Shown piece after piece: positions 16,018 to 35,214 of a stretch of 35,214 nucleotides of DNA (the first letter of the stretch is position 1; every line of letters starts with the position of its first letter). The stretch covers positions 1-35,214 of the forward strand of contig JAJZDA010000012.1 in assembly GCA_021851525.1 (NCBI GenBank), written 5' to 3'. Under the pieces are notes generated by a model that worked only from the letters and a program-made list of their open reading frames with translations, ran no database searches and was not told the DNA's origin. Both the position numbers and the translations under genes were made by a program. The stretch comes from Actinomycetes bacterium. Lineage in GTDB: Bacteria; Actinomycetota; Thermoleophilia; Solirubrobacterales; Solirubrobacteraceae.

Positions 16018-16254
16018 ATGAGCGTGCAATCAATCGGGGGCCAGTCCCCCGCGTTCGCGCTGCAGTCGCTGCAGGCGACGCAGTCAGCCACCAAGCCCGA
16101 GTCCGCAGAGCAGCCCGGCGTGGCCGACAACGACGGCGATCACGAGAGCGCCGTCAAGGTCTCACTCTCCAACCAGGCCTCGGGCTCCAACCAGGCATCG
16201 GGTTCCAACCAGGCATCGGGTTCCAGCCAGGCATCGGTTTCCAACCAGGGCTGA
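16018..16254 (+). CDS. small protein with C-terminal SNQASG repeats
   Basis: A 78-residue protein from ATG 16018, chosen for an AAAGGAG ribosome site 6 bases upstream; a longer frame from GTG 15961 is possible. The N-terminal half (IGGQSPAFALQSLQATQSAT) is helical, the centre is acidic (VADNDGDHESAVKVSLS), and the last 28 residues are near-identical SNQASG repeats. It has no signal peptide and no NHLP-type leader, Cys or Gly-Gly site, so I do not call it a RiPP precursor, although it lies at the head of the export operon. The opening loosely resembles small YjfB-like motility proteins. Function unknown. Confidence 0.55.
   Translation: MSVQSIGGQSPAFALQSLQATQSATKPESAEQPGVADNDGDHESAVKVSLSNQASGSNQASGSNQASGSSQASVSNQG
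16168..16254 (+). repeat. 18-base tandem repeat in the SNQASG gene
   Basis: TCCAACCAGGCATCGGGT is repeated head to tail from 16,168: copies begin at 16,168, 16,186, 16,204 and 16,222, with a partial fifth copy at 16,240 that ends in the stop codon. The copies differ by 0-3 bases. Repeats of 18 bases keep the reading frame, so copy number can change without breaking the gene. Confidence 0.8.
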
Positions 16255-16262
16255 GCGCCGGA

Positions 16263-16338
16263 CGTGCGCCGCGCCGCGGCGCGGGCGACGCGGCGCACGC
16301 CGACTCCGCAGACCGGCGGCGCGCCGCAGCGCGCCGCC
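16263..16338 (+). terminator. two strong hairpins after the SNQASG gene
   Basis: CGTGCGCCGCG at 16,263-16,273 pairs perfectly with CGCGGCGCACG at 16,289-16,299. A second hairpin follows, GGCGGCGCG at 16,315-16,323 with CGCGCCGCC at 16,330-16,338. The first begins 9 bases after the stop codon. There is no T-run, as is common in high-GC actinobacteria, so they may terminate or attenuate transcription into the exporter operon. Confidence 0.5.
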
Positions 16339-16480
16339 ATGCACGCGGTCGCTGGATGCGGCCTCCCGCCAGGCTCACGATTCCCGCCGGGTGACGCCTT
16401 ACAGTCCAGCCCGATGACGACTGAGCAGCCCGACCTTTGCGGCCGCGCCCGCGGCGTTGAGACCCGCCGCTGAGCGCGCC

Positions 16481-17704
16481 ATGGGCATCGGCTTCTCGCG
16501 CAAGACGGCTGGGCTGCTCGCTGTGACGCTGTGCCTCACGGGCGCGATCGTGGCGCTCGTGGCGGTGCTCGCCGGAGGCCCATCGGGGACCAGCATCAGA
16601 GGACGGCGGGTGCTGAGCATCGGGGCCCTGTTCTCGCTGACCGGCGCGGGCGACGTCTACGGCCCCCAGCAGCTGCGCGCGGCCCAGTTGGCCGTGTCCC
16701 AGCTCAACGCGGCAGGCGGCGTGGACGGGGCCACGGTCAAGCTCGACGTGCACGACGACGAGTCATCGCCGGCCGTCGGCAGGGCGCAGATGGGCGCGGT
16801 GATCGGGCGTGATCACGTGCTCGCCGTGCTGGGCCCGAGCCTCTCGCTGGTCGCCCAGCACGCGGATGCAACGGCCAGCGCGCAGCACACACCCGTGCTG
16901 GCGGTGAGCAACTCCGCCAACGGCATCGTGGGACGCTGCGCCTACGACTGCTCGTGGATCTGGCGTGACAGCCTCGGCGAGGCGACCGCGGTGCCCTCCG
17001 CGGTGCAGTGGCTCGCGGATCAGGGGCACATCGCGTCGGCGGCGATCATCAACTCAGACGATGTGCTCGGCCAGGATGACGCTCAGATCGCGTCGCAGGC
17101 GTTCACCGCCAACGGCATCCCGGTGGTGGCGCGGATCCAGGTGGTGGGCAGCATCAGCGTGCCCACCGCGGTCACAGCAGCGCTGCGCGAACGACCGGAG
17201 GTGCTGTTCGTGGGGGCCACCTCCGGGGCGCTGGCCGCTGAGGTCGTGCGCCGGGCGCGCGCCGACCACTTCACAGGCACGATCGTCGGCGGCAACGTCT
17301 TCAACAGCCACGCCACGAACCTGCTGGCCGGTGATGTCGGCAGCGGCACGATCAGTGGCGCCGCCTGGTACGCCGGCAACGACTTTCCCGCCAACAGCCA
17401 GTTCATCGCGGCCTACACGCGCCGCTACGGGGTCGCTCCGGATCAGTTCGCGGCACAGGCGTACACCGGCGTACAGGTGCTGGCCGCGGCGATCCGGATA
17501 GCGGGCTCAGCGGTGCGCACGGCACCGCTCCCCCAGGCCCGCGCGGCGATCGAGCGGGCCCTCTACAGGGTCGCGGTGATGACCCCGCTGGGCGCCCTGC
17601 GCTTCACCCACACACACGACGTGATCCAGACCGTGTGGGTGCTCAGGTCAACCGCCCGGGGCTCGAGACTCGTCGGCTTCTGCGACACGGGGCTGCTGTG
17701 CTAG
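16481..17704 (+). CDS. periplasmic ligand-binding protein (Leu/Ile/Val-type)
   Basis: A 407-residue protein with ATG 16481 (MGIGFSRKT) as likely start; residues about 10-32 are a signal or anchor helix (AGLLAVTLCLTGAIVALVAV). The mature part has IGALFSLTGAGDVYGPQQ and AAQLAVSQLNAAGGVDGATV, the signature of type I periplasmic binding proteins of branched-chain amino-acid ABC importers (Peripla_BP_6), in two lobes. No lipobox Cys is visible, so it may stay anchored by its N-terminus. There are no matching permease or ATPase genes nearby. It is co-directional with the NHLM exporter and overlaps its HlyD gene by 7 bases, so it probably belongs to the same transcript. The ligand is unknown. Confidence 0.85.
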   Translation: MGIGFSRKTAGLLAVTLCLTGAIVALVAVLAGGPSGTSIRGRRVLSIGALFSLTGAGDVYGPQQLRAAQLAVSQLNAAGGVDGATVKLDVHDDESSPAVGRAQMGAVIGRDHVLAVLGPSLSLVAQHADATASAQHTPVLAVSNSANGIVGRCAYDCSWIWRDSLGEATAVPSAVQWLADQGHIASAAIINSDDVLGQDDAQIASQAFTANGIPVVARIQVVGSISVPTAVTAALRERPEVLFVGATSGALAAEVVRRARADHFTGTIVGGNVFNSHATNLLAGDVGSGTISGAAWYAGNDFPANSQFIAAYTRRYGVAPDQFAAQAYTGVQVLAAAIRIAGSAVRTAPLPQARAAIERALYRVAVMTPLGALRFTHTHDVIQTVWVLRSTARGSRLVGFCDTGLLC

Positions 17705-18507
17705 CTCCGGGCAAGTTCCGCACCAGTGCGCTCAAGCGCCTGAACTCACCGGAACAGCTCGACCAGCTGCTCCGGGTGGCGCCGGCGCGACGCTGGTTCG
17801 CGCTCAGCGGGCTGCTGCTGCTGGTTGCTGCGGCGATCGTCTGGTCGGTGGCGTCGAGCGTGCCCACCACGCTCAGCGGCACCGGCTACCTGTTGCCGGA
17901 GGGGGGGCTGCGCAAGATCTCCGCCTCGCAGTCAGGCACCGTGGAGAACCTCAACATGTCCAACGGCCAGCACGTCGTCGCCGGGGAGACGCTCGCCGAC
18001 GTGCGCACCCAGGCGGGCGCGGTGGTTCCCCTGCGCTCGCCGGAGACCGGTGTGCTCACCGAGCAGGACATCTCCCAGAACTCCTACGTGACCGCGGGCG
18101 GACGGGTCGGGCTCGTACAGCCGGTCGGATTCCCGCTGGTGATCTACGCGTACGTGAAGACCAACATCGCCGCGGACCTGCGCCCCGGCACCCCTGCGCA
18201 GGTGGTCTTCGGGGCCGGGATCGGCCAGGCGTATGGGTACGCGGAGGCGACCGTCGCCTCGGTCAGCCAGTTCGCCGTCACCGGGGAGCACCTCGACTTC
18301 ATCCTGCAGGACGCGTCCGTGATCAAGAAGGTGCTGGCCCAGGGGCCGACCAACGAGGTGGTGCTGACGATGAACCTCTCCGCTGATACGCCCAGCGGCT
18401 TCGTCTGGGGCTCGGGCCGCGGACCGAGCGGGCCGCTGCCGGCCGGGCTACCGGCGCAGGTGACCTTCGTGATCGGCCAGCACCACCCGATCAGCAACGT
18501 GCTCTGA
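17698..18507 (+). CDS. NHLM secretion system HlyD-like protein
   Basis: A 269-residue protein. The start GTG 17698 overlaps the previous stop (GTGCTAG); the N-terminus then reads FRTSALKRLNSPEQLDQLLR, the conserved beginning of the NHLM bacteriocin secretion protein family. A membrane helix follows at about residues 35-58 (FALSGLLLLVAAAIVWSVAS), then a barrel-sandwich/lipoyl-like part (GTVENLNMSNGQHVVAGETL). It acts as the adaptor that links the inner-membrane ABC exporters to the outside. It ends 6 bases before the first ABC gene. Length and order match known NHLM export cassettes. Confidence 0.88.
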   Translation: MLAPGKFRTSALKRLNSPEQLDQLLRVAPARRWFALSGLLLLVAAAIVWSVASSVPTTLSGTGYLLPEGGLRKISASQSGTVENLNMSNGQHVVAGETLADVRTQAGAVVPLRSPETGVLTEQDISQNSYVTAGGRVGLVQPVGFPLVIYAYVKTNIAADLRPGTPAQVVFGAGIGQAYGYAEATVASVSQFAVTGEHLDFILQDASVIKKVLAQGPTNEVVLTMNLSADTPSGFVWGSGRGPSGPLPAGLPAQVTFVIGQHHPISNVL

Positions 18508-18513
18508 GCCAGG

Positions 18514-20745
18514 ATGGCAACCACCGCCGACGCCCCACAGCCGCTCAGGGCCCCGACGGGCGCCACGCGCCGGCGCGTGCACACCCCCACGCTGCTGCAG
18601 ATGGAGGCCTCCGAGTGCGGGGCCGCGTCGCTGGGCATCGTCCTCGCCCATCACGGCATGTGGGTGGCGCTGGAGGACCTGCGTGAGCAGTGCGGCGTGT
18701 CGCGCGACGGCTCAAAGGCATCAAATGTGCTGAAGGCCGCGCGGCATTACGGGATGGATGCCAAGGGGATCCGCATCCGCCCAGAGGACCTGACCGATGT
18801 GCGGCTGCCGGCGATTGCGTTCTGGAACTTCAATCACTTCCTGGTGATCGAGGGCTTCGGGCCCGCGGGCGTGCACCTCAACGACCCCGCCAGCGGTCCC
18901 CGCACCGTCGGCTGGCGGGAGTTCGACGACAGCTTCACCGGCGTGATCGTCGAGCTCACGCCGGGGGCCTCCTTCGCGCGTGGCGGCGCCTCACCCTCGC
19001 TGGCGCGTGGGTTGCGACGCCGCTTCCACGGCGGCACCAGCGCGCTGACGCTCTGCGTGCTGGCGGGTGCCGGGCTGCTGGTGCCCGGTCTGCTGACGCC
19101 CGCGGCCACGCGGATCTTCGTGAATGAGGTGCTGGCCCAGGGCAACAACAGCTGGCGCTCCGTGCTGATCGTGGCCGTGATCCTCGCGGCGCTCACACAG
19201 GTCGCGTTCACGTGGCTGCAGCAGATCACGCTGCTGCGCCTCTCGGTGAAGCTCTCGATGTCGATGTCGACACGCTTCGTGGAGCACCTGCTGGCGCTGC
19301 CGCTGCGGTTCTACGCGCAGCGCTCGGGCGCTCAGCTGGTCACGCGCGTGCGCCTCAACGATGAGATCGCCTCGCTGCTGTCAAGCCAGCTGGCGGCGAA
19401 CCTGCTGGCGATGCTGACATCGACCTTCTACCTGGTCCTGATGGTGATCTACGACTGGCAGCTGACGCTCGTTGCGGTTGCCTTCTCCGCCCTGAACGTG
19501 CTGGTCCTGCAGGCATCGGCACGGCGTCAGCGTGACGGGAACCTGCGCGTGATCAAGGATTCGGGCGCGCTCACCGCCACAGCGGTGGCCGGCCTGAGCA
19601 ACATCGAGAGCCTCAAGGCCGGCAGTGAGGAGGGCTCGTTCTTTGCTCGCTGGGCGGGATACCAGGCCAAGACGATGGCGGAGATCCAGGAGCTCGGTCA
19701 GCCCTCCGCGCTGATGACCAGCGTGCCGATGCTGCTGATCAGCCTGAACACGGCGGTGCTGCTCGGCTTCGGCGGGCTGCAGGTGATGAACGGGACGCTC
19801 TCGATCGGCACGCTGCTGGCGTTCCAGCTGCTGGCGGCGAGCTTCGCCGGGCCGATCGCCCAGCTGGTCGGCTTCGGGTCCGTCCTGCGCAGGGCCGCCG
19901 GCAACCTCGCGACGCTCGACGACACGCTCAACTACCCGCCTGACAGCGACACGCTGCCACGACCGCGCGCACCCCGGATCAGTGTGACCGAGCCCGACGG
20001 CCGGCAGCTCGAGCGCGAGCTGCCGGCGAAGCTGTCCGGTGCGATCACCGTCGAGGGCCTGACCTTCGGCTACAGCCCGCTGGAGCCGCCGCTGCTGAAC
20101 GACTTCACGCTCAGCGTCCAGCCCGGTCAGCGGATCGCGCTCGTCGGGGAGACCGGCAGCGGCAAGTCGACGGTGGCGATGCTGATCTCCGGGCTGCTGC
20201 AGCCCTGGGCGGGACGGATCCTGTTTGACGGCATCCCACGGGAGCTGATCCCGCGTGAGACCTTGGCCGCCTCACTGGCGCACGTGAGCCAGGACATCCT
20301 CCTGTTCGAGGCGCCGATCAGGGAGAACCTCACGCTCTGGGACCCGACCGTCAGCGAGAGCGCCGTGGTCCGGGCGGCCCACGACGCGATGATCCATGCC
20401 GACATCCTCAAGCGCCCGCAGGGGCTCGAGCGGCCGCTGCAGGAGGGTGGACGCGACTGGAGCGGCGGCCAGCGCCAACGGCTCGAGATCGCCCGGGCGC
20501 TCACCGGAGACCCCTCGATCCTGATCATGGACGAGGCCACCAGCGCGCTGGACCCGGTGGTGGAGCAGGCGATCGACGAGCGCATCCGTGCGCGCGGCTG
20601 CACCTGCCTGATAGTCGCGCACCGCCTCTCAACGATCCGTGACGCCGATGAGATCCTGGTGCTGGATCACGGGACCGTTGCCGAGCGCGGCACGCACCAG
20701 CAGCTGATCGAACTGGGCGGCATCTACGCGGGGCTGGCCGAATGA
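18514..20745 (+). CDS. NHLM ABC transporter with C39 leader peptidase
   Basis: A 743-residue protein in three parts. Residues about 20-150 are a C39 peptidase: LLQMEASECGAASLGIVLAH gives the catalytic Cys at about 35, NHFLVIEGF the His at about 108, and NDPASG the Asp. It would cut precursor leaders after Gly-Gly. Residues about 170-440 are six membrane helices (ABC exporter). The C-terminal ATPase has Walker A GETGSGKST (~545), signature WSGGQRQR (~648) and Walker B ILIMDEAT (~669). It is the first of the paired NHLM transporters. It overlaps the second by ATGA at 20,742. The precursor at 32,382 has a matching Gly-Gly site. Confidence 0.92.
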   Translation: MATTADAPQPLRAPTGATRRRVHTPTLLQMEASECGAASLGIVLAHHGMWVALEDLREQCGVSRDGSKASNVLKAARHYGMDAKGIRIRPEDLTDVRLPAIAFWNFNHFLVIEGFGPAGVHLNDPASGPRTVGWREFDDSFTGVIVELTPGASFARGGASPSLARGLRRRFHGGTSALTLCVLAGAGLLVPGLLTPAATRIFVNEVLAQGNNSWRSVLIVAVILAALTQVAFTWLQQITLLRLSVKLSMSMSTRFVEHLLALPLRFYAQRSGAQLVTRVRLNDEIASLLSSQLAANLLAMLTSTFYLVLMVIYDWQLTLVAVAFSALNVLVLQASARRQRDGNLRVIKDSGALTATAVAGLSNIESLKAGSEEGSFFARWAGYQAKTMAEIQELGQPSALMTSVPMLLISLNTAVLLGFGGLQVMNGTLSIGTLLAFQLLAASFAGPIAQLVGFGSVLRRAAGNLATLDDTLNYPPDSDTLPRPRAPRISVTEPDGRQLERELPAKLSGAITVEGLTFGYSPLEPPLLNDFTLSVQPGQRIALVGETGSGKSTVAMLISGLLQPWAGRILFDGIPRELIPRETLAASLAHVSQDILLFEAPIRENLTLWDPTVSESAVVRAAHDAMIHADILKRPQGLERPLQEGGRDWSGGQRQRLEIARALTGDPSILIMDEATSALDPVVEQAIDERIRARGCTCLIVAHRLSTIRDADEILVLDHGTVAERGTHQQLIELGGIYAGLAE

Positions 20746-23606
20746 CCGCAGAGCTGGAGCTCGACTTCGCCGGGCCGGCCATGTCGGTCTCTGGGCTCAC
20801 GCCGATAGTGCTCGACGACAGCGACCGGGCGTGGCTGGTCGCGTCCGGATCGGTGCAGGTCTTCGCCGCGCCCGCAGGCGCGGCGCACACGCAGCGCTTC
20901 CCGCTGATGTCGGTCACCTCCGGGGGGCTGGTGCTGCCACCGAGCGGCGATCCCCGCGTTCAGCTGATGATCGTCGGGCTCAGCCCCGGCACCACGGCGC
21001 GACCGGTGACCCGTGGCGAGCTGATGCGCCGCGCGCAGAGCGGCGGGCAGGCGGCGGTGATCGGGCTGGTGGAGGATTGGCTCGAGGCGCTCAGCGCAGC
21101 CGTGAGCGCACCGATGCCCGACAGCGGCGAGTCGCTGATGGCCGATGAGCCGCTGGCGCTGAGCGCGGGCCAGCCGGCCTGGCCGGCGACCAGCACCGTC
21201 TGGCTGCCGGTCAGCTCGCCGGTGCGGATCTTCGGAGATGAGAGCGACGCCGTCGACGGCGGGATCCTGCTGCCCGTCCCACCCCGGGTCTGGCTGAGCG
21301 CCGACACGCCGCTGCAGGCCACGCCGCTGAGCAGCGAGGACGCGTTTGCGATCCCCGACGCGCGCGCCGGGGTCGACGCCCTGATCAGCGTGCTCCTGGC
21401 ACGCCTGCAGCGACGGCTGGCCGGGGTGCCGGCCGCCGCCGCTGACGCGCTCGACCGCCGCGCGCAGTACGAGGCCGCGCTGCGTGAGCAGACCTTCACG
21501 GCGCTGGCCGCGGTGCTCAGCCACGAGCAGCCGCCCGACGGTGCCGAGCAGGGCGGGGCGGTCCTCGCCGCGCTGCGGCTGGTCGCCGCCGCCCAGGGAA
21601 TCGAGCTGAAGGCCCCGCCTCCGGGCGCGATCGGGGCGCAGACTGACCCCGTGGACGCGATCTCACGGGCCTCCGGCGTGCGCTGGCGCGAGGTGGCGCT
21701 CACCGAGGGCTGGCAGACGCGCGACGTGGGCCCGCTGATGGCACGCATGCTCGACGACGGCCGCCCGGTGGCGCTGCTGCCGCGCCGCCTGCGGGGCTAT
21801 GAGCTCGTCGATCCGGCGGACGGCTCGCGCGTGCGCGTCAGCGCCGAGCTGGCAGGGCAACTGGCCGTTCACGGGGTGATGCTCTACCGGCCGCTGCCGG
21901 AGGGCGTCGTGAGCAACCGGCAGATGGCCCGATTCCTGTGGCGGTCGATCCGCCTTGACACCCGCGCGCTGGGGCTGCTGACGGTCGGCACCACCGCCGT
22001 GTCGCTGCTCACGCCGCTGGTGACCAAGCGGATCTTCAACGTGATAGTGCCGGGGCTGCGGCGTCCGGAGCTGGTCTGGATGACGCTGCTGCTGGTGGTC
22101 TTTGCACTCTCGAGCTTCGGCTTCGCCTACGCCCAGCAGCTGGCGGTGCTGCGGATCCAGGGTCGTGGCGCGGGGGACGTGCAGGCGGCGATGTGGGACC
22201 GCGTCCTGGGGCTGCCGATGCCGTTCTTCAGAACGTCCTCGGCCGGCGCGCTGGCGATGAGCGTGATGGGCGTCGAGCAGATCCGCGCGCTGGCCACGGC
22301 CGTGGTGGTGGCGGCGATCCTGGCCGTCCCGGTGGGGCTGGGCAACCTCGCGGAGGCGCTCGTGATCGACTGGCGGCTGGGGATCTTCGCGGTGGTGGCG
22401 GTCGCGGTGGTGGCGGTGCTGCTGGTGGTGCTGATCCGTGCCCAGGTTCCCAGGCAGAGGCTGGTGATCGACGCCGATGACGAGCTCTTCGGGGTCACGC
22501 TGCAGATCGTCGACGGGATCGGGAAGCTGCGCGTCGCCGACGCGGAGCGACGCGCCTTCGCGCAGTGGGGCTGGCGCTTCAGCAGGCTCAAGCGGCGCTT
22601 CTACGACGCGCAGGCTTCGTTTGCGGCGGTCACCGCGCTGGTGGCCGGCGCCCCGTCGCTGGGCATCCTGCTGCTGCTGGTCGGCAGCTCGACCATCGAC
22701 CGGAACCTGAATCCCGGGACCTTCCTCGCATTCAACACCGCGTTCCTGCAGGCGCTCACGGCCGTCACCGGGCTGACCGGGGTGGCCGCGTTCATCGCCC
22801 AGGTGGTGCCGCTCTATCGCAAGATGGCCCCGGTGCTGAGCGTCGAGCCGGAGGCGGCCGAGATCCGCAGCGACCCCGGGCGCCTCAACGGCCAGATCGA
22901 GGTCAGCCACGTGTCCCTGCGCTACAGCGACGACGGGCCGCTGGTGCTCAACGACGTGAGCTTCAAGATCGAGGCCGGGGAGTTCGTCGCCTTCGTGGGA
23001 CCGTCCGGGGCCGGCAAGTCATCGATCATGCGGGTGCTGCTGGGATTCGAGCGGCCAGAGGTGGGATCGGTGCGCTACGACGGCCAGGATCTCGAGATGC
23101 TCGACCTCACGGCGCTGCGCCGGCAGCTCGGAGTCGTCGTGCAGAACGCTCGGCTCTTGCCGGGCGACATCTTCTCCAACATCGTCGGGTCGCGCCGGCT
23201 GACGCTGGAGGACGCCTGGGAGGCGGCCCGCACCGCGGGTGTAGATGAGGTGATCCAGGCGCTGCCGATGGGCATGCACACGATCATCTCCGACGCCGGC
23301 GGGGCGCTCTCCGGGGGACAGCGCCAGCGGCTGCTGATCGCGCGGGCAGTTGCGGGACGCCCGCGGGTGCTGCTGTTCGACGAGGCCACCAGCGCGCTTG
23401 ACAACCGCACCCAGGCGGCGGTGTCGGACGCGATTGAGCGGCTGCACGCCACCCGCATCGTGATCGCGCACCGCCTCTCGACGGTGCGCAGCGCCAACCG
23501 GATAGTCGTGCTGGACGCCGGCAAGGTGGTGCAGGTGGGGACCTACGACGAGCTGATCGATGTGCCCGGACCGTTTCAACGACTGGCGAGGAGGCAGCTG
23601 GCGTGA
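20742..23606 (+). CDS. second NHLM ABC transporter, ATP-binding/permease
   Basis: A 954-residue protein. The first ~380 residues form a long cytoplasmic N-terminal region specific to the second NHLM transporter; it has no C39 Cys motif. Membrane helices follow, for example LGLLTVGTTAVSLLTPLVT and LVWMTLLLVVFALSSFGFAY. The ATPase is complete: Walker A GPSGAGKSS (~752), signature LSGGQRQR (~857), Walker B VLLFDEATS (~876) and an H-loop IAHRLSTV. It probably works with the C39 transporter as a heterodimer or in sequence, but how the two share the job is not known. It overlaps its neighbours at both ends by 4 bases. Confidence 0.92.
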   Translation: MTAELELDFAGPAMSVSGLTPIVLDDSDRAWLVASGSVQVFAAPAGAAHTQRFPLMSVTSGGLVLPPSGDPRVQLMIVGLSPGTTARPVTRGELMRRAQSGGQAAVIGLVEDWLEALSAAVSAPMPDSGESLMADEPLALSAGQPAWPATSTVWLPVSSPVRIFGDESDAVDGGILLPVPPRVWLSADTPLQATPLSSEDAFAIPDARAGVDALISVLLARLQRRLAGVPAAAADALDRRAQYEAALREQTFTALAAVLSHEQPPDGAEQGGAVLAALRLVAAAQGIELKAPPPGAIGAQTDPVDAISRASGVRWREVALTEGWQTRDVGPLMARMLDDGRPVALLPRRLRGYELVDPADGSRVRVSAELAGQLAVHGVMLYRPLPEGVVSNRQMARFLWRSIRLDTRALGLLTVGTTAVSLLTPLVTKRIFNVIVPGLRRPELVWMTLLLVVFALSSFGFAYAQQLAVLRIQGRGAGDVQAAMWDRVLGLPMPFFRTSSAGALAMSVMGVEQIRALATAVVVAAILAVPVGLGNLAEALVIDWRLGIFAVVAVAVVAVLLVVLIRAQVPRQRLVIDADDELFGVTLQIVDGIGKLRVADAERRAFAQWGWRFSRLKRRFYDAQASFAAVTALVAGAPSLGILLLLVGSSTIDRNLNPGTFLAFNTAFLQALTAVTGLTGVAAFIAQVVPLYRKMAPVLSVEPEAAEIRSDPGRLNGQIEVSHVSLRYSDDGPLVLNDVSFKIEAGEFVAFVGPSGAGKSSIMRVLLGFERPEVGSVRYDGQDLEMLDLTALRRQLGVVVQNARLLPGDIFSNIVGSRRLTLEDAWEAARTAGVDEVIQALPMGMHTIISDAGGALSGGQRQRLLIARAVAGRPRVLLFDEATSALDNRTQAAVSDAIERLHATRIVIAHRLSTVRSANRIVVLDAGKVVQVGTYDELIDVPGPFQRLARRQLA

Positions 23607-23902
23607 CGCCGCAGGACACCTTCGATGAGCTCGTGGCGATCGATCGCGCAGCCGAGCCGCACCCTCGCCGCTGGCCGCTGGCGCTGCTGGCCCTGCCGGT
23701 GGTGGCGGTGATCGTGCCGGAGATCTACAACCATCTGCGCCCGCACTGGCTCGGGCTGCCGTTCTTCATCTGGTACCAGTTCGGCGCGGTGCTGCTGGGC
23801 GGTGTCGCCGCCGGGCTGGCCAACCTGCTGACGCACGGTCGCGGCGGCCGTGCGCGGCCGGCCTCGCAGGCCACCCCACCGCCCGCGGAGCCGGCGCCGT
23901 GA
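23603..23902 (+). CDS. DUF3311-type small symporter partner
   Basis: A 99-residue protein from GTG 23603 with two membrane helices (LALLALPVVAVIVPEIYNHL and FGAVLLGGVAAGLANLL). The segment LGLPFFIWYQF between them is the hallmark of DUF3311 proteins, small membrane proteins encoded just before sodium:solute symporters such as MctP, and presumed to be a subunit. It overlaps the transporter gene before and the symporter gene after, each by GTGA. The Pro/Ala-rich tail is likely disordered. Confidence 0.8.
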   Translation: MTPQDTFDELVAIDRAAEPHPRRWPLALLALPVVAVIVPEIYNHLRPHWLGLPFFIWYQFGAVLLGGVAAGLANLLTHGRGGRARPASQATPPPAEPAP

Positions 23903-26152: not shown

Positions 26153-26163
26153 CGTCGCGGCCC

Positions 26164-27519: not shown

Positions 27520-29528
27520 GCGACCGCCAGCGGCGCCTGCAGCCGCGCGGCCGGAGCCAGGTACTCGCGCTTGTCGCGACCCTGGCACCAGGTCAGGAAC
27601 TCGGCCCAGGCGCTGAGCGACTCGAACCGCCGTTCACTGTGGCGTATGCGGTACACGCAGAGGCGCTCATCGAGCGCCAGCGACTCCCCGCGCTGGCCCG
27701 CCTGCCAGAAGCCGAGCAGGTCGTGTGAGAGCACCAGCCGCGCGTCCCGCCGCCGGCCCGGCAGGCGCAGCAGCTCGCCGTTGAGCGTGAACGCCTCGTC
27801 GAGAATCGTCTGCTCCTCAGGATCGTCGGGCAGCAGCGCGCCCAGCGCACCGCGCGCCTCCGCGTAGAAGGCCTCCAGGCGCGCTTCGGTGACGAGCCTC
27901 AGGTACAGGTACTGGTCACCTGGCCAGAGGATGTTGCCCCAGCGCGGCTCGGCGATGTACTCGACCGCGCCCTGCTGGATCCGGCGCGCCTGCTCAGCGA
28001 GCAGCGCGATCGCCCATGCGAGTACGGGGAAGCGATCCGGCTGCGCCTGCGTGAGCTGCTCCAGCAGCCGGCGGTGGGGCACCCCGTGGCGCTGCCCCAT
28101 CACCAGCAGCGGGACCTGCAGCAAGCGGTCGAAGTAGACGAGGTCCGTCATCCAGGCGAACACCTTGACCCGCACCCAGTCCGCCGGCGGCATCGCCTCG
28201 GTCGCGATCACCGTGTCGCAGTACTCCTCAACCTCCGGCCGCTCGTCGGCCGGCGCATAGGCGCTGCGGATCGCCTGGGGCACGGTCGCCATCCCGAACC
28301 GCCGCTGGTAGTCGGGGTCGCCCATCTCCGCATTGGGCAACACCTGGCAGTTGTGGAACTGGATGTGGTTGTGCTGGCCGTCCGCGATCACCCGCGAGAC
28401 GCTGTCCGCAAAGGCCGCGTAGCTCTCACCGGGCAGGCCGATGATCAGATCGGTGTAGGTGTAGATCCCGTCTCTCAGATAGCGCTGCTGCAGCTCTGTG
28501 AACGACGACGAGCGGATGTTGGCGCGGCGGATGTTTGCGAGCGTCTGTGGGTCCGCGCTCTGCAGTGAGAGCGTGACGCCGATCGTGTGCAGGTGCTGGT
28601 GCAGCAGCCGCTGGATCTGGTAGGTGCGCTCGGTCGAGTTCTTCGCGTTCTGGATTGAGAGTGAGAAGGGAAAGCCGCTGCGCTGCTTGGCGTCGACCAC
28701 CGCCTGCGCGATCTCCACGTCACGCGGGAGCATCCCGAAGTTGGCGTCGGCGCACAGCACGAAGCCCACCCGCTGCTCTGAGAACCAGTCGATCTCCCGC
28801 TGCAGACGGTCCATCGCGAAGCGACTGACCTTCGCTGCGGTGGCGGAGCCCCAGTCGCAGAACGTGCACGAGAAGGGACAGCCGCGGTTGGTCTCCCAGG
28901 TCGCGACCCAGCGCCGCTGCGGCTGGGAGGCCATCAGCTGCGCGAAGGCCCCGTTCAGGTACGGCGAGGGGATCTGGTCCAGCTCGCGGGTGCGCGGCGC
29001 CGGGGGGTGATGCTGAAAGCCGGCGTCGGCGTCGAGGTAGCTGATCCCCGGGATCCCCTCCCAATCGCGTGAGGCGGCGCGGGCGAGGATCGCGGTGAAG
29101 ATCCGCTCCCCCTCCCCGTGGCAGACGAGATCGACCTGCGGGTTGGCGCGCAGGAACTCCTCGGCACGGTCGGGCACCTGCGGGCCACCGAGCACCACCA
29201 GCGTGCGCGGCGCCGTGCGCTTGAGCTCGGCGAGCACCGCCAGTGAGGCGCGCACGTTCCACACGTAGACGCTCGCGCCGACGACGTCGGCGCCGAGCAG
29301 CTGCGAAACCGCCTCGGCGACGGGCAGGCGTTCAAACACCGGTGTCAGCCAACGTGGCTGCGCAGCGGCCGGCAGGTGCGCCGCGGCGTGAGCCTGCAGC
29401 AGCCCGACCGAGTAGGGCAGCAGGCTGTATGAGCTCTGCTGCGCGTCGGCCTGCGGACGCGACTCATGCTCTGAGTGCGACCAGTTCAGCCCCCAGTTGA
29501 TCTGCATCAGCCCGACGGTGGTTGTCAT
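27516..29528 (-). CDS. B12-binding-type radical SAM RiPP maturase
   Basis: A 670-residue protein from ATG 29528 (MTTTVGLMQINWGLNWSHSE). The N-terminal ~200 residues form a Rossmann-like B12-binding-type domain (VVGASVYVWN, TLVVLGGPQV, VDLVCHGEGE) without the DxHxxG motif. The radical SAM cluster is CPFSCTFCDWG with Cys at about 217, 221 and 224. The rest (LIIGLPGESYAAF, YCDTVIATEAMPP) matches the RiPP-maturation radical SAM C-methyltransferase group. Related enzymes methylate unactivated carbons in RiPPs such as proteusins. It heads the P450/methyltransferase operon. C-methylation of the core or leader-distal residues is inferred. Confidence 0.9.
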   Translation of the reverse strand: MTTTVGLMQINWGLNWSHSEHESRPQADAQQSSYSLLPYSVGLLQAHAAAHLPAAAQPRWLTPVFERLPVAEAVSQLLGADVVGASVYVWNVRASLAVLAELKRTAPRTLVVLGGPQVPDRAEEFLRANPQVDLVCHGEGERIFTAILARAASRDWEGIPGISYLDADAGFQHHPPAPRTRELDQIPSPYLNGAFAQLMASQPQRRWVATWETNRGCPFSCTFCDWGSATAAKVSRFAMDRLQREIDWFSEQRVGFVLCADANFGMLPRDVEIAQAVVDAKQRSGFPFSLSIQNAKNSTERTYQIQRLLHQHLHTIGVTLSLQSADPQTLANIRRANIRSSSFTELQQRYLRDGIYTYTDLIIGLPGESYAAFADSVSRVIADGQHNHIQFHNCQVLPNAEMGDPDYQRRFGMATVPQAIRSAYAPADERPEVEEYCDTVIATEAMPPADWVRVKVFAWMTDLVYFDRLLQVPLLVMGQRHGVPHRRLLEQLTQAQPDRFPVLAWAIALLAEQARRIQQGAVEYIAEPRWGNILWPGDQYLYLRLVTEARLEAFYAEARGALGALLPDDPEEQTILDEAFTLNGELLRLPGRRRDARLVLSHDLLGFWQAGQRGESLALDERLCVYRIRHSERRFESLSAWAEFLTWCQGRDKREYLAPAARLQAPLAVA

Positions 29529-29657: not shown

Positions 29658-30881
29658 GTGCTCCCCACTGTCGGTGTGGTCGTGCCCACGCGCGACCGGC
29701 TGCTCAACCTCACGCGCCTGCTCGGAAGCCTGGCCGGCCAGAGCTTTGGTGAGTTCGCCGTGGTGGTGGCCGACGATGGCTCGCGGGACGGCACACGTGA
29801 GTGGGTCACGGAGCTTGCGGGGCAGGCCCAGTGGTCAGGCTGGCTGACGTGGGTGGGTTGCGGACGCGGGCCACTCGCCAACAGCCTGCGCGCGCGCAAC
29901 CTCGGCGCCGCGAACCTGCCGGCGTCGGTGGAGCTGCTGGTGACGCTGGACAGCGACCTCCTGCTGGCGCCGGAGACGATCGCCGAGTTCTGGGCGGCGC
30001 ACAGGCGCTGGCCGGACGCCGCGATCTTCGGCAGGGTCTCCTGGCTGGCGCCGGGCGAGCCGTTCGAGCGCAGGCGCTCCGCGCCGACCGGCGCCCCAGA
30101 TCAGCACGCGCAGGCGCTCGCGTCGAGCGCGACCCCACCCGCGCCGCCAACCCCACCCGCGCCGCCAACCCCACCCGCGCCGCCGGCCGTGATCCCGCCG
30201 GTGCGCGAGCTCAGCTCACTGGTCCCGGTCGGCTGGCCGCCGCAGCGCGTGCAGGGCACGCTGGTCGGCCCGGAGCTGCGCGCCACCGCACCGTTCAAGG
30301 CGCTCTCCGAGGCCGCGCCGGTGGCACTGCGCCCGGAGTGGGGGCTGACGCTCAACAGCGCCGTGAGTCTCAGCCGCTATTGGGAGCTCGGGGGCTTCGA
30401 CGAGACGATGCCCGGCTACGGACTCAAGGACTTCGACTTCACGCTGCGACTGCGCGCGGCGGGGGTTCCTGCGGTGTTCCTGGCCACCGCGCAGGCCTTC
30501 CACGTGTGGCATCCCAAGGGTCCTGGGTGGGCTGCGCAGGAGCAGCGCAACCTCGACCTGCTGCTGCGCCGCCACGGGCGCATCGCGAGTCTCGAGGCGG
30601 GCTGTGACTGGCGCCTGTGGTTTCACTACCACCGTGAGCGGGGAGGGCGCATCGCCGCCCTGGAGGGGCACTCACCGGCCGCCGAGGACGGGCTCTGGGC
30701 GATCAACGCATCCGGCAGCCGACGGCTGCGCCTGCCGGACCCCGGCTGGTGCCACAGGCTTGGGTTCCAGCCGGGCGACGCGCAGCCAGTCAGCAGCACG
30801 GAGCTCGAGCGAAGCAGCGACGCGGGAGTTGCGCAGCTCGAGCCGATCCCCGGTGAGGAGTGGAGCGCGGCCGGCGGGTGA
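29658..30881 (+). CDS. GT2-type glycosyltransferase with a Pro-rich insert
   Basis: A 407-residue protein from GTG 29658 (VLPTVGVVVPTRDRLLNLTR). VVVADDGSRDGTREWV and LVTLDSDLLL (DxD-type, about residue 97-100) are GT-A fold donor-binding motifs, and PGYGLKDFDFTLRLRAAGV matches the galactosyltransferase-type C-terminal acceptor region. Between them, at about residues 155-180, lies a PAPPTPPAPPTPPAPP linker made by an 18-base repeat, unusual for the family. The last ~100 residues are variable. It probably adds a sugar to the RiPP. It is divergent from the radical SAM operon and convergent with the GT4 gene. Confidence 0.85.
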   Translation: MLPTVGVVVPTRDRLLNLTRLLGSLAGQSFGEFAVVVADDGSRDGTREWVTELAGQAQWSGWLTWVGCGRGPLANSLRARNLGAANLPASVELLVTLDSDLLLAPETIAEFWAAHRRWPDAAIFGRVSWLAPGEPFERRRSAPTGAPDQHAQALASSATPPAPPTPPAPPTPPAPPAVIPPVRELSSLVPVGWPPQRVQGTLVGPELRATAPFKALSEAAPVALRPEWGLTLNSAVSLSRYWELGGFDETMPGYGLKDFDFTLRLRAAGVPAVFLATAQAFHVWHPKGPGWAAQEQRNLDLLLRRHGRIASLEAGCDWRLWFHYHRERGGRIAALEGHSPAAEDGLWAINASGSRRLRLPDPGWCHRLGFQPGDAQPVSSTELERSSDAGVAQLEPIPGEEWSAAGG

Positions 30882-31029
30882 CAGCGCCAGGGGGTCGGCG
30901 CGGCCGGCTGGTGATCGCGCCCGTGCGTCGGCTCTGCCGGCTGGTGATCGCGCCCGTGCGTCGGCTCTGCCGGCTGGTGATCGCGCCCGTGCGTCGGCTC
31001 TGCCGGCGGGTGATCGCGCCCCGGGGCGT
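30865..31029. repeat. five tandem copies of a 33-base repeat
   Basis: The unit is 33 bases and centres on GGTGATCGCGCCCGTGCGTC. Copies begin at 30,865, 30,898, 30,931, 30,964 and 30,997. The third and fourth are identical, and the first and fifth have drifted. The first copy covers the last codons and TGA of the GT2 gene, and each copy carries a TGA in that frame. The array fills the space between the two convergent glycosyltransferase genes. There are no spacers, so this is not CRISPR. Confidence 0.85.
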
Positions 31030-31057
31030 GGGCGCGAGCCCCGCGTGCCAGACCGTC

Positions 31058-32212
31058 TCAGCTGCTCAGCTGTGAGCTGCTCAGCTGCGCCAGCTGAGCC
31101 AGCCGCGCACCGATCAGCCGCGCCACGGGCGCGGCTGAGAAGCGCTCGGCGATCAGGCGCCTGCCGCATTGTGCGCGCGCAGCTGCAGCCTGCGGATCGG
31201 TGAGCACCGCGCGCATCAGCGCGACTGCATGCTGCAGGTCAGGCTCCGCCCACTGCGCGTCGGCCGCGTAGGGCTCGCGTCCCTCCCCCACCGCCACCAG
31301 CCTGTGGCTCACCGGGAAGCCGGTCCGCGCGCTGAGGAAGTCCGTGGTCCCGGAGTAGTCGGTGGCTATCACCGGCACCCCGGCCGCCATCGCCTCGGCC
31401 ACCGCGAGGCCGAAGCCCTCCCCGCGATGCAGCGACACGTAGGCGCTGGCGTGCGCCAGCAGCGACGCCATCTCAGCTTGGGACATGTGACGGTCCACGA
31501 CCGCGCAGTCCGGGCGATCCCGCACCATCTCCCGCAGCTGCGCGAGCGCCCGCGGAGCCTCCTGGCCGCCGACTGTCTTGAGGTAGCAGCCGGCTCCCGC
31601 TCCGGCCGGAAAGGCGCGCTGGAAGGCCTCGATGAAGCCCGCCGGGTTCTTGCGCGCGAGCACCGCCCGCTCGTTGGTGGAGGAGCCGAGGTTGACCACG
31701 GAAACGAACACGCGCCCCTGCGGCATCCCCAGCTCAGCGCGTGTGTGCGCGGGCCGGCCCGCATCGCCCCGGCGCACGGACGGTGCGCCGACGACCAGCG
31801 GGATGACGTGCACCCGCCGCTCCCCCACCGCGAGGGCCGCAGCCGAGGCGGCGAAGCTGCTCGGCGCCCAGACCTCGTCGACGAAGCGCGCCGCCACCGC
31901 CATCATCGGGTCGGGCTGCGCAAGCTCCCAGGGCCAGCAGCCAATCACGTGATCACCCGGCCACGGACGCTGCCGGCTGCCGAACGCGAGCCCCGCGAGC
32001 GCCCGCGCAGTCATGCAGACGAGCGTGACCGGATACGCCGGCTCACCGCTCCGCGACCGGCGGCGGGCGCGGGCCAGATCATGACGCTGCACGGGCACCC
32101 CGGCCGCCGTCAGCGCGTCGGCGTAGGCGGACGCCACCGGCCCCATGCCCGGATCCGCGGAGAACCAGCCGGCGACGTTCACGCCCAGTCGCGCAGCGCC
32201 GGTCGCGGTCAT
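31058..32212 (-). CDS. GT4-family glycosyltransferase
   Basis: A 384-residue protein from ATG 32212. The N-terminal half (VNVAGWFSADPGMGPVASAY) is the acceptor-binding domain of a GT-B fold enzyme. The C-terminal half has RVFVSVVNLGSSTNE and the EGFGLAVAEAMAAGVPVIA stretch (about residue 265) that binds the nucleotide-sugar. The very end (QLAQLAQLSSSQLSS) is a repeat of AGCTG-rich DNA. It diverges from the precursor gene with 169 bases between them and is a plausible second sugar-adding enzyme of the cluster. Donor and acceptor are unknown. Confidence 0.85.
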   Translation of the reverse strand: MTATGAARLGVNVAGWFSADPGMGPVASAYADALTAAGVPVQRHDLARARRRSRSGEPAYPVTLVCMTARALAGLAFGSRQRPWPGDHVIGCWPWELAQPDPMMAVAARFVDEVWAPSSFAASAAALAVGERRVHVIPLVVGAPSVRRGDAGRPAHTRAELGMPQGRVFVSVVNLGSSTNERAVLARKNPAGFIEAFQRAFPAGAGAGCYLKTVGGQEAPRALAQLREMVRDRPDCAVVDRHMSQAEMASLLAHASAYVSLHRGEGFGLAVAEAMAAGVPVIATDYSGTTDFLSARTGFPVSHRLVAVGEGREPYAADAQWAEPDLQHAVALMRAVLTDPQAAAARAQCGRRLIAERFSAAPVARLIGARLAQLAQLSSSQLSS

Positions 32213-32232
32213 CGAGACCGCGTGCCGCCACG

Positions 32233-32381: not shown

Positions 32382-32747
32382 ATGGATCCAGCTGGGCGTA
32401 AGCAGTTCATCAGCAGTTACACCAAGGTCCTCACCACCGCGTGGACCAACGAGCAGTACGCGAGTCGCCTGCAGTCGGACCCAAAGGCAGTCCTGGCAGA
32501 GGCCGGCCTGGAAGTACCGGAGAGCGGCACGCTGATGATCCTCACCGAGTCCGGTGGCGATCCCAACCTCGATCAGGCGGTTGACCTGTGGGAGGAGGGC
32601 GCGAGCAGCGGCACCTACAAGCTCTACGTGCCGCCGGAACCGCAGTATGAGACCGGGGAGCTCGACGAGAGCGACCTGGAGGCTGTCGTGGGTGGTGGCA
32701 CCAGCGCCTGCTGCTGCTGCTCTTCCCCCTGCTGCTGCTGCACCTGA
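32382..32747 (+). CDS. NHLP-type RiPP precursor with a poly-Cys core
   Basis: A 121-residue peptide from ATG 32382 with an AAAGGAAC ribosome site 5 bases upstream. The leader (KQFISSYTKVLTTAWTNEQY, then DPKAVLAEAGLEVPESG) is nitrile-hydratase-alpha-like, the NHLP family of TOMM precursors. It ends in ELDESDLEAVVGG, a Gly-Gly site for the C39 peptidase. The 16-residue core (residues 106-121) is GTSACCCCSSPCCCCT: eight Cys plus Ser and Thr, all potential azole sites. Every Cys codon is TGC. The following cyclodehydratase gene, the NHLM exporters and the tailoring genes support the assignment. The exact modified product is not known. Confidence 0.92.
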   Translation: MDPAGRKQFISSYTKVLTTAWTNEQYASRLQSDPKAVLAEAGLEVPESGTLMILTESGGDPNLDQAVDLWEEGASSGTYKLYVPPEPQYETGELDESDLEAVVGGGTSACCCCSSPCCCCT

Positions 32748-32768
32748 GCATCACCTGGCCCAAGATCA

Positions 32769-32800
32769 CGTTTCCGTCTCCCTGACCGGAGACGGAAACG
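32769..32800 (+). terminator. 13-bp hairpin between precursor and cyclodehydratase genes
   Basis: CGTTTCCGTCTCC at 32,769-32,781 pairs perfectly with GGAGACGGAAACG at 32,788-32,800 around the loop CTGACC. It begins 21 bases after the precursor stop and ends 9 bases before the YcaO start. No T-run follows. It is probably a partial terminator, or an mRNA stabiliser, that yields much more precursor than enzyme, a common need in RiPP clusters. It could also hold back YcaO translation. Confidence 0.65.
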
Positions 32801-32809
32801 CCCAGGTCC

Positions 32810-35101
32810 ATGCCCAAGCTTGACTTCACCCATCCGCGTCTGAAGGCGGACAGGCGCGTCGACGTGGTCGACGGCGACAAGGTCTTCCTCACCTCGGAGG
32901 GCCGTCACTTCATCGTCCACGGCCAGCCGGCGGTGGCCGTCCTCCCCTACCTGGACGGCAGGCACACGCTCGCCGAAATTGCCGAGGCGGTGGCCGACCG
33001 GTTCCCGATCACCACCGTGCTGGGCGCCGTCGGACGCTACGCGGACTTCGGACACCTGGTCGAGGGGCCGGCCGACGGCGACCCCGCCACCGCCTGGTGG
33101 GACCACCTGGACGCCGGGGCGCAGCACGCGACCGAGCGGCTGCGCTCGCGCGTGCCGGTGCTGCTGGCGATCGGCGACGACGCGCAGCAGCTGGCGATCC
33201 AGGAGCTGGCCGCGCAACTGCCCGAGGCGCGTGTCCTAGCGTCGCCGGCAGAGCTCACGCAACTGGGCGCGCAGGATCTGGCGGTGGTCCTCACCGACGA
33301 CTACCTGAACCCCGCGCTGCAGGAGTGCAACCGGATCCTGTTGAGCAACGGCACACCATGGCTGCTGGCGCGCGTGACCGGCTTTCAGCTGTGGCTCGGC
33401 CCGCTGCTGACACCACGGCAGAGCGGCTGCTGGGCCTGCCTGGCGCAGCGGCTGGCGGCCAACCGCCAGGTTGAGCGCTTCGTGCAGAGCGCCAACGGCG
33501 CCGGCTGGTCGGATCCCGGCGTGGCGACGATGCTGCCCGCCACGCTGCGGGCCGCCACCGGCCTGACCGCCGCGGAGACGCAGCGGATCCTCGTGCAGGA
33601 CGGCTCCCCGACGGTCGACGGCACGCTCGTGACGATCGACCTGACCACGCTCGAGTCCCAGCGGCACACGCTGGTGCGCCAGCCGCAATGCCCCGCCTGC
33701 GGCGAGCCCGACAGCCACGGCCGGCCCGGGCCGATCGAGCTCAGCCCTCAGCAGGCGCGCTTTGGCGAGGACGGTGGCCACCGCGTCAGAAACCCGTCCG
33801 AGACCGTCGCCCGGCTCGAGCGCCATGTGAGCCCGCTGATCGGTGCGATCACCGGCCTGCACCGCCTCACCGAGCCGGGAGACGAGGTCTCCCACGCCTA
33901 CGCGGCCGGCCACAACTTCGCGATGCTCACCACCTCCACCTACCTGCTGCGGCGCAACCTGCGCGGCCTCAGCGGAGGCAAGGGGCGCACCGACGCGCAG
34001 GCACGGGCCAGCGCGATGTGCGAGGCGATAGAGCGCTACAGCGGCCTCTGGCGCGGCGATGAGCCGCGCCGCCGTGGGGCCCTCGCGACGCTCGGCGAGG
34101 AGGCGATCGCGCCGGAGGCGCTGCTCGAGTTCTCAGCGTGGCAGTACGACAACCGCGAGGCCTGGAACCACCGTCAGCGCAGCGGCCTGCACATGGTTCC
34201 CGAACGCCTGGACCGTGAGCGCGAGATTGATTGGACGCAGGTCTGGTCGCTCACCCACCAGCGCCCGCGGCTGGTTCCCAGCGCCTACTGCTACTTCGGG
34301 CACCCCGACCTGGCGGATGGCCCGTTCTGCTACTGCGACGCGAACGGCAACGCCGCCGGGAACACGCTCGAGGAGGCGATCCTGCAGGGGTTGCTCGAGC
34401 TGATCGAACGGGACTCGGTGGCGATCTGGTGGTACAACCGCTCACGGCTCCCGCGGGTCGATCTGGACTCGCTCGAGGATCCCTACACGCGCACGCTCGA
34501 GCGTTACTACCGCGAGATGGACCGCAGCCTCTGGGTGCTGGACATCACCACGGACCTCGGGATCCCCGCCTTCGCGGCTGTCTCACACCGCCAGGACCGG
34601 CCCGTGCAGGACATCGTGCTGGGTTTCGGCGCGCACGTGGAGCCGCGGCTCGGGGTGATGCGGGCGCTCACCGAGTGCAACCAGTTCCTGCCCGCGGTCG
34701 TCAAGCGCGACAGCGACGGCGCGACCCTCTACGACTTTGACGATCCCGAAGCCCAGCAGTGGTGGCGCGAAGCGACGCTCGACAGCGAGCCCTACGTGGT
34801 CCCCGCGGCGAGCGCTCCGCCCACCGACGTGCGCCGCATGGCCGATGCCTCGGGCAGCGACATAGCCGAGGAGATCCGCGCCTGCGTGCAGCGCCTGGCG
34901 CACGCCGGCATCGAGGTGCTGGTGCTGGACCAGTCCCGCCCTGACCTCGAGATCAAGGTCGCCAAGGTGATCGCGCCGGGGCTGCGCCACTTCTGGCGGC
35001 GCCTCGGCCCCGGGCGGCTGTATGAGGTGCCGGTGGCGCTGGGCCGTGCGGAGCGCCCGACCCCGGAGTGGGAGCTCAACCCGCGGAGCGTCTTCTTCTG
35101 A
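32810..35101 (+). CDS. fused TOMM leader-binding / YcaO cyclodehydratase
   Basis: A 763-residue protein from ATG 32810. Residues about 1-90 form a RiPP recognition element-like leader-binding part, and 90-310 an E1/ThiF-like partner domain with zinc-type pairs CWAC (~206) and CPAC (~294). From about 350 the YcaO domain follows: SGGKGRTDAQARASAMCEAI (~388) with the ATP-binding ExxER, and LLELIERDS (~525). The ending PTPEWELNPRSVFF is a Pro-containing C-terminus as in YcaO cyclodehydratases. It uses ATP to turn core Cys (or Ser/Thr) into azolines. Both partners in one chain is common, as in TruD. Its target is the precursor just upstream. Confidence 0.92.
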   Translation: MPKLDFTHPRLKADRRVDVVDGDKVFLTSEGRHFIVHGQPAVAVLPYLDGRHTLAEIAEAVADRFPITTVLGAVGRYADFGHLVEGPADGDPATAWWDHLDAGAQHATERLRSRVPVLLAIGDDAQQLAIQELAAQLPEARVLASPAELTQLGAQDLAVVLTDDYLNPALQECNRILLSNGTPWLLARVTGFQLWLGPLLTPRQSGCWACLAQRLAANRQVERFVQSANGAGWSDPGVATMLPATLRAATGLTAAETQRILVQDGSPTVDGTLVTIDLTTLESQRHTLVRQPQCPACGEPDSHGRPGPIELSPQQARFGEDGGHRVRNPSETVARLERHVSPLIGAITGLHRLTEPGDEVSHAYAAGHNFAMLTTSTYLLRRNLRGLSGGKGRTDAQARASAMCEAIERYSGLWRGDEPRRRGALATLGEEAIAPEALLEFSAWQYDNREAWNHRQRSGLHMVPERLDREREIDWTQVWSLTHQRPRLVPSAYCYFGHPDLADGPFCYCDANGNAAGNTLEEAILQGLLELIERDSVAIWWYNRSRLPRVDLDSLEDPYTRTLERYYREMDRSLWVLDITTDLGIPAFAAVSHRQDRPVQDIVLGFGAHVEPRLGVMRALTECNQFLPAVVKRDSDGATLYDFDDPEAQQWWREATLDSEPYVVPAASAPPTDVRRMADASGSDIAEEIRACVQRLAHAGIEVLVLDQSRPDLEIKVAKVIAPGLRHFWRRLGPGRLYEVPVALGRAERPTPEWELNPRSVFF

Positions 35102-35214
35102 GCGAGACCGAACTCCGCAGCGGGTTGCGTCCCGACGCGCGGCTGCTGATCGAGCCCGGCGCCCCGGCGCGGCTGACGCTCGGGCCGGCCACGCTCAAGC
35201 TCGGCGCCGCCGGG
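35098..35214 (+). CDS. start of a further cluster gene, cut by the window end
   Basis: A frame open from CTG 35098, overlapping the YcaO stop, reads SETELRSGLRPDARLLIEPG, then ARLTLGPATLKLGAAG to the window end. It starts directly after YcaO, so it belongs to the same operon. TTG 35125 is another possible start. Only 39 codons are visible. By position a SagB-type azoline dehydrogenase, or another leader-binding partner, would be expected, but the visible residues do not prove either. Confidence 0.4.
   Translation, partial: MSETELRSGLRPDARLLIEPGAPARLTLGPATLKLGAAG

Follow-up and report, generated by a model that had tools for sequence, protein, structure and literature searches.

Is the cysteine-packed end of a single predicted peptide a local peculiarity, or does it mark a wider family with a shared product? 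This question is raised by a contig from a Solirubrobacteraceae genome (GenBank assembly GCA_021851525.1, contig JAJZDA010000012.1; C8 in our numbering), all 35,214 bases of which were analysed and are called the window here. Its right half holds a candidate gene cluster for a ribosomally synthesized and post-translationally modified peptide (RiPP), with a precursor that ends in the 16-residue core GTSACCCCSSPCCCCT, in which a Pro stands between two runs of four Cys. We found that this core is not particular to the source cluster, as a closely similar end is present in 44 other clusters over three named phyla (actinobacteria, chloroflexi and cyanobacteria). From these comparisons we consider it probable that the window encodes a proteusin-type RiPP cluster, that its product carries two blocks of consecutive azoles flanking the Pro, and that the precursor is part of a leader clade whose core hardly varies.

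The precursor and its neighbors have the features of the nitrile hydratase leader peptide (NHLP)/thiazole-oxazole-modified microcin (TOMM) class. A profile of the leader (A3) matched nitrile hydratase alpha (1v29, E 7e-12) and the NHLP leader 8tb1 (E 3.7e-8), which is the homology by which proteusins and NHLPs are recognized; with Foldseek alone nothing matched below E 0.001, and the best rows were nevertheless nitrile hydratases. There is no Cys ahead of the core in the window precursor, so the metal-binding Cys motif of nitrile hydratase is absent. The core is preceded by VVGGG, whose G105 shows at least 90% conservation across 61 aligned precursors, and two NHLM transport genes score over their cut-offs (TIGR03796 and TIGR03797). 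The YcaO protein, which includes a leader-binding C domain, likewise exceeds the cut-offs of TIGR03604 and TIGR03882, in keeping with a TOMM cluster. In the source genome, NHLP and YcaO were each matched once. Profile scores and sequence thus bear out the class, core, Gly-Gly site and C39-associated NHLM export proposed in the first-pass annotation of this DNA, and profile and Pfam scans located every gene that it named. One relative differs in its processing genes: the Desmonostoc precursor (L007) is without the Gly-Gly site, an S8 protease is encoded in its stretch, and no NHLM genes were seen in the stretch examined, which fits a different route of leader removal.

The constancy of the core was assessed among proteins related through their leaders. 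Our first profile search returned 421 proteins (120 listed), and since it could select on Cys words, its uniform cores were not taken as evidence. A single-sequence search with the leader alone gave 4 matches only. We built a leader-only profile from 21 leaders cut ahead of the core, of which one was the window's and 20 came from the first profile list, which leaves that much dependence on the first search. This profile matched 130 proteins; the 120 listed comprise 82 at 83-146 bits and 38 at 56 bits or less. Among these listed matches, 76 of the 82 proteins above the gap fit the strict core pattern, another 4 come close to it and 2 are without a C-terminus, and the strict pattern occurs in 0 of the 38 proteins below it. 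Over the 80 intact members, mean identity is 0.44 in the leader and 0.70 across 11 core columns, rising to 0.92 when Cys, Ser and Thr are pooled; these three residues interchange at most core positions. The NHLP controls below the gap (36 of 38 usable) are reversed, at 0.52 for the leader and 0.34 for the tail. A P-C pair lies within the last 20 residues of all 80 intact members and is invariant in an alignment of eight precursors, and 68 of the 80 end in Thr. Leader and core are tied strongly but not absolutely, and the exceptions lie along the clade's margin.

This pattern departs from what has been described for the class. Haft et al. 2010 (PMC2887384) and Cox et al. 2015 (PMC4603692), in the portions available to us, call NHLP cores hypervariable or highly variable, a description that is not a criterion of membership and that this clade, whose core is more conserved than its leader (0.70 versus 0.44), does not follow. 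Those portions describe a nitrile hydratase-like leader that lacks the metal motif, together with a Gly-Gly site, a fused YcaO and NHLM transporters, all as we see them here, and Cox et al. (PMC4603692) state there that NHLP precursors escaped identification under their parameters. What seems to be novel is a leader clade whose core outlasts its leader in conservation, set against the published hypervariable cores.

The enzyme list of the first-pass annotation, although real in every entry, omitted a probable SagB dehydrogenase that is hidden because the contig ends 113 bases after the YcaO gene. We scanned six poly-Cys relatives (Acidimicrobiales L004, Frankia sp. AgB32 L005, Ilumatobacter L006, Desmonostoc L007, Anaerolineae L010 and a Helcobacillus record, L070), and in 6/6 a SagB gene lies directly 3' of YcaO, at 116-175 bits against a cut-off of 78.4. 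More broadly, SagB is present in 31 of the 33 poly-Cys clusters with YcaO, and the other two (G724 and G1038) meet a contig or stretch end. By eye, the window's tail frame (35104-35214) resembles the N-terminus of the Frankia SagB, and within the source genome the Frankia protein has a single match, at the end of contig C235, with 67% identity over residues 275-494. The SagB gene is thus probably split between the window end and C235, which would carry its C-terminal half. C235 terminates in a 9-base tandem repeat, the likely cause of the assembly break (the assembly is 3.44 Mb in 267 contigs), and beyond SagB the contig carries an ArsR-like gene and hydrogenase-like genes (named by eye), so the cluster probably ends there. 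In the Anaerolineae stretch (L010, 7688-12250) there are two tandem YcaO genes, and the cluster has two precursors.

The gene content of the poly-Cys clusters suggests where two further enzymes act. We tallied 48 groups, of which 44 are poly-Cys; the window was excluded, and G782, G1064, G1190 and G1196 were left out because they have no poly-Cys end. YcaO is present in 33 of the 44 clusters, SagB in 31, a P450 in 37, a methyltransferase in 38 and a radical SAM homologue in 11. The 11 clusters in which YcaO was unseen are ten stretches of ~20 kb and one 6 kb contig; fully covered Streptomyces clusters place YcaO more than 10 kb away, and the same is possible for the ten. The P450 and methyltransferase genes are mostly within ~5 kb of the precursor or directly after ABC2. 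Both occur in 37/44 other clusters, so that this part of the expected tailoring set, along with the radical SAM enzyme in its 11 clusters, held up.

All 37 clusters with the pair (38 including the window) have Thr-ending precursors only, and the last residues in the pair-less clusters G500, G638, G502 and G488, examined over at least 19 kb to either side, are V, A, S and C, respectively. The link to Thr was proposed from the first 25 clusters (window included), ahead of the Streptomycetaceae set; in the five apparent exceptions among the new genomes, the pair was present in all five once the flanks were extended, just past ABC2. The Fisher figure for the association is 9e-6, which takes no account of relatedness. 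A tree of YcaO was made with 41 rows (30 with both traits, strict set) and includes 26 pair-bearing clusters, not 38; on it, the label changes at least 4 times. Flanks were too short to class G516 and G1039 (a 6 kb contig whose precursors end in T and T), and G1510 (ends S) and L054 (ends C), where the pair is absent in partial coverage, are outside the four contrasts. Because the pair and Thr come and go together, we regard action of the pair on the C-terminal Thr as a good lead, not proof.

A pathway can be proposed by analogy with MprE/MprC/MprD, for which the available part of the report describes how a YcaO enzyme works on a leader of this structured type, the ring being oxidized by a flavin enzyme (PMC12455567). 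The structured NHLP leader would recruit the fused YcaO, which would cyclodehydrate the C4 run before the Pro, perhaps with the two Ser, and the C4 run after it; SagB would then oxidize the rings to thiazoles. The P450 would oxidize, and the methyltransferase methyl-cap, the C-terminal Thr, and in a subset of clusters the B12 radical SAM enzyme would add a C-methyl group. Finally, the C39 domain of ABC1 would cut after Gly-Gly and the NHLM exporter would secrete the product. The first-pass annotation expected up to eight thiazol(in)es in this predicted product; eight is a fair count of the Cys, and Ser or Thr could add azoles to it.

Plantazolicin offers a comparison of working principle only, as it has two azole blocks parted by non-cyclized residues and a terminal methylation. 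It differs in its leader, in its separate B, C and D proteins, in its mixed Cys/Thr/Ser blocks and in its N-terminal dimethylation, and in our cluster it is a Pro that separates the blocks. Closer relatives are the azole proteusins nostatin A (PMC11583998), carnazolamide and the dehydrazoles (PMC10676384) and the Mpr system (PMC12455567), which, in the parts of those reports available, share with our cluster an NHLP leader, a YcaO cyclodehydratase, a dehydrogenase (probable here) or azoles (predicted here) and a Cys/Ser/Thr-rich core. The same parts give a 30-residue core for nostatin A and a 30-residue peptide as the source of carnazolamide, with mixed modifications in both, unlike here, and their descriptions of these systems contain no short core of the Cys run-Pro-Cys run type. 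Carnazolamide is described there as requiring a LanM-type dehydratase, and such a gene next to YcaO marks a dehydrazole cluster; none (DUF4135) was detected among the Pfam-scanned cluster genes here, the sequence between the two contig ends being outside the scan. The aminopyruvatide cluster (PMC11117315, PMC13192836), as far as the accessible text goes, likewise combines a P450 (ApyO), a radical SAM enzyme (ApyD) and a methyltransferase (ApyS), and its ApyO joins two Tyr, whereas our core has no Tyr. Against the ApyO, ApyD and ApyS models, the window's proteins score 183.6, 67.4 and 29.7 bits, far below the cut-offs (525 for the ApyO-type P450). We found no product or precursor with a Cys run-Pro-Cys run core described in the open-licence PMC papers searched, and a description elsewhere is possible.

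Several observations weigh against the interpretation developed above. The leader (TIGR03793, for which the NCBI value is 50.9 bits), HlyD, the radical SAM enzyme (KedN5) and the P450 (ApyO) all fall short of the curated cut-offs. The SagB of the source genome sits on two contig ends whose link we infer. A Streptomyces cadmiisoli plasmid precursor, at 86.9 bits in the leader-only profile, ends in VKINCQIL, and precursors from Streptomycetaceae G1190, G1196 and G1064, at 73-78 bits, have no Cys run at the end; the poly-Cys member G500 scores only 80 bits. With exceptions at 73-87 bits, the score gap is not sharp and the tie between core and leader is not absolute. As for the C-terminal Thr, there are only four independent contrasts (4/4 concordant, sign test 0.125), G516, with its methyltransferase at a contig end, has precursors ending in T and S and was excluded from the contrast, and the P450 and methyltransferase could have their targets at other core positions.

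The last of these points leads to the alternative that survives best, which we judge unlikely on balance: the P450 and methyltransferase would act on the pre-Pro block or the backbone, and their tie to the terminal Thr would be inherited rather than functional. In its favor, the independent contrasts number only four (sign test 0.125), and the ApyO P450 acts on Tyr residues in the available account, but Thr is kept in each of the 37 pair clusters and missing in the four well-covered pair-less ones. It is improbable, in our estimate, that this is an ordinary NHLP-TOMM cluster whose Cys-rich core is regular by accident and whose tailoring genes are a random local mix. Cys-rich cores are already known among NHLP-TOMMs from the portions available of PMC2887384 and PMC10676384, Cys runs also occur in NHLPs below the gap (e.g., P0184 and P0187), and four leader relatives at 73-87 bits carry unrelated ends; the P-C-centered core in 80/80 intact leader-only members among the matches listed, together with the P450 and methyltransferase in 37/44 clusters, argues otherwise. 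Very improbable is a secreted peptide whose Cys stay free or partly free and bind metal as thiols, with YcaO and SagB modifying few residues. Eight Cys per sixteen residues and a P-C pair in all 80 aligned members would suit such a ligand, but YcaO and SagB are an azole-making pair, SagB accompanies YcaO in 31/33 clusters, and the interchange of Cys, Ser and Thr fits heterocyclization, not thiol ligands. The window and most relatives do contain TGC TGC TGC TGC runs, but it is hardly credible that the poly-Cys end is an artefact of trinucleotide repeats or of reading frame in GC-rich DNA. This reading was rejected on the codon table, given 23 TGT codons scattered over the examined stretches among 349 Cys codons (326 TGC), the use of all four Pro codons, in-frame leader homology and the same core in the Desmonostoc locus at 41% G+C.

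The layout of the locus is given in the table below. The first-pass annotation began the cluster at 16018; it does lie there, with its first cluster-like gene starting at 16457, and it extends from about that position to the contig end. Six plus-strand genes from the binding protein to the symporter come first, followed by the methyltransferase, P450 and B12 radical SAM genes (minus), GT2 (plus) and GT4 (minus), with the precursor and YcaO last. The annotated methyltransferase start overlaps the P450 and is probably too early, and the true P450 start is probably internal to its annotated open reading frame (ORF).

Features of the candidate cluster in the window, with the basis for each assignment
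Feature	Position	Strand	Basis
Peripla_BP_6 periplasmic binding protein, upstream of HlyD	16457..17704	+	Pfam
NHLM HlyD-like membrane fusion protein	17635..18507	+	TIGR03794 130.1 bits, under cut-off 156.2
NHLM ABC transporter 1 (ABC1) with C39 peptidase	18514..20745	+	TIGR03796 967.3 bits, cut-off 853.3
NHLM ABC transporter 2 (ABC2)	20742..23606	+	TIGR03797 789.1 bits, cut-off 709.4
DUF3311 protein, overlapping ABC2 stop	23603..23902	+	equal order in Acidimicrobiales L004/G483
Sodium:solute symporter	23899..25362	+	G483 homologue 55%, matching position
Class I SAM methyltransferase	25328..26341	-	Methyltransf_25 56.5 bits
Cytochrome P450, 474 aa counted from first GTG	26164..27588	-	PF00067 266.5 bits
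B12-binding radical SAM enzyme, 670 aa	27516..29528	-	best NCBIfam KedN5, 265 bits
Family 2 glycosyltransferase (GT2)	29658..30881	+	Pfam
Family 4 glycosyltransferase (GT4)	31058..32212	-	Pfam
NHLP-type precursor, 121 aa	32382..32747	+	TIGR03793 E 2.1e-10, 40.3 bits
Codons of Gly-Gly (residues 104-105), where C39 is predicted to cleave	32691..32696	+	sequence
Core region, last 16 residues	32697-32744	+	sequence
Fused C/D YcaO cyclodehydratase, 763 aa	32810..35101	+	TIGR03604 259.2 bits (cut-off 219.25), TIGR03882 149.1 (36.9)
Probable SagB dehydrogenase gene start, cut by contig end	35102..35214	+	frame 35104-35214, by-eye likeness

The B12 radical SAM enzyme is likely a C-methyltransferase. 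It scores 265.4 bits against the KedN5 model NF033712, under the cut-off of 700, and C217, C221 and C224 are invariant in an alignment of 5. Its homologues in 11 of the 44 other clusters fall into five at 43-63% identity and six at 32-37%, and with 11/44 only we rejected it as a universal part of the cluster. A close homologue was present in 1/396 genomes of a phylum sample, the source genome only. In a plasmid collection, the radical SAM query returned 15 records (best 40%), and the one opened had no annotated RiPP cluster; the precursor query returned 2 records, and the one opened, the S. cadmiisoli plasmid (L080, 13908-14321), has a related leader and NHLM genes with a different end that is short and not poly-Cys. 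Clusters G1005, G1021, G1032, G1097 and G1120 (L174-L177, L179, L205-L214) each have two different poly-Cys precursors, one of which has a divergent B12 radical SAM gene (32-35%) close by.

The sugar additions that had been expected did not find support. BLAST searches of the other clusters examined (E up to 1e-6) gave no match for either glycosyltransferase, which leaves glycosylation of the product, and membership of GT2 and GT4 in the pathway, unsupported. The binding protein upstream of HlyD and the DUF3311/symporter genes (23603-25362; L004 21442-22268) are similarly placed in two clusters and perhaps serve re-uptake or sensing; the window's binding protein and its counterpart at the equal position in L004 (13745-15049) match weakly, at 25% over 77 residues. 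Two TIGR03032/DUF4915-like proteins are encoded in the Ilumatobacter stretch (L006, 7929-9371 and 19371-20273).

Scans of ten proteins to the left of 16 kb showed none that resembles a cluster component. A PLD-domain protein there (3508-4839, minus) matches PADLOC DrmC at 334 bits, and no defence match came from three further left-flank proteins that were scanned; toxin-antitoxin family proteins include a BrnT-like one (below cut-off; 7043-7411, plus) and a ParE-like one (10402-10695, plus). Tandem repeats occur at 16168-16249 (18-base units within ORF 15961-16254, encoding SNQASG repeats) and at 30865-31036 (33-base units at the GT2 end and ahead of GT4). Rfam and tRNA scans of the window gave no matches.

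The family is patchily distributed, which fits horizontal transfer. YcaO matches were present in 2/101 genomes, those of the source and one congener. The precursor profile matched 10/200 genomes in the family of G501 (Streptosporangium), 23/345 in the family of G487 (Streptomyces), 3/297 in the family of G500 (Amycolatopsis) and 3/298 in the order of G483 (Acidimicrobiales); among the genomes matched, G782, G1064, G1190 and G1196 are without a poly-Cys end. Within the 20 kb examined in G1196, G1190 and G1064 (L192, L193 and L194), SagB gave a match and YcaO gave none. Matching proteins are named from Streptomyces, Embleya, Microbispora, Sphaerisporangium, Kitasatospora, Yinghuangia, Nakamurella, Cylindrospermum and Anaerolineae, among others. 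A more distant NHLP missed by the profile, L054, carries CCCCCCPCCCC and was kept apart from the tallies. In Spirulina (L013, 4722-4922 and 5012-5203) there are cores CCCTCPCCCC and CCCTLCCC behind a leader that is cyanobactin-like by eye; the first precedes a SYDGDD tail, a similar core grammar on another leader type.

Taken together, these comparisons suggest a widespread subfamily with a near-constant core within the known NHLP/TOMM kind, with its chemistry and function predicted. The named loci (e.g., Streptomyces, Nonomuraea, Frankia and Desmonostoc) are places to seek one predicted compound class, and the site of P450 and methyltransferase action is a clear prediction for which the four pair-less, Thr-less clusters are natural controls. 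A nearly constant core in three phyla, unusual for RiPPs, points to a conserved product and target, and its constancy most likely reflects a conserved target and not an arms race. Tentatively, and with less than even confidence, we put forward the bolder proposal that one near-constant bis-polyazole peptide (azole run-Pro-azole run-modified Thr), with an invariant target and a new Thr-capping P450/methyltransferase module, is made in all three phyla from a dedicated NHLP leader clade. If so, this peptide would be a signal, a metal or redox carrier or an inhibitor of a universal machine, and not a rapidly varying weapon.

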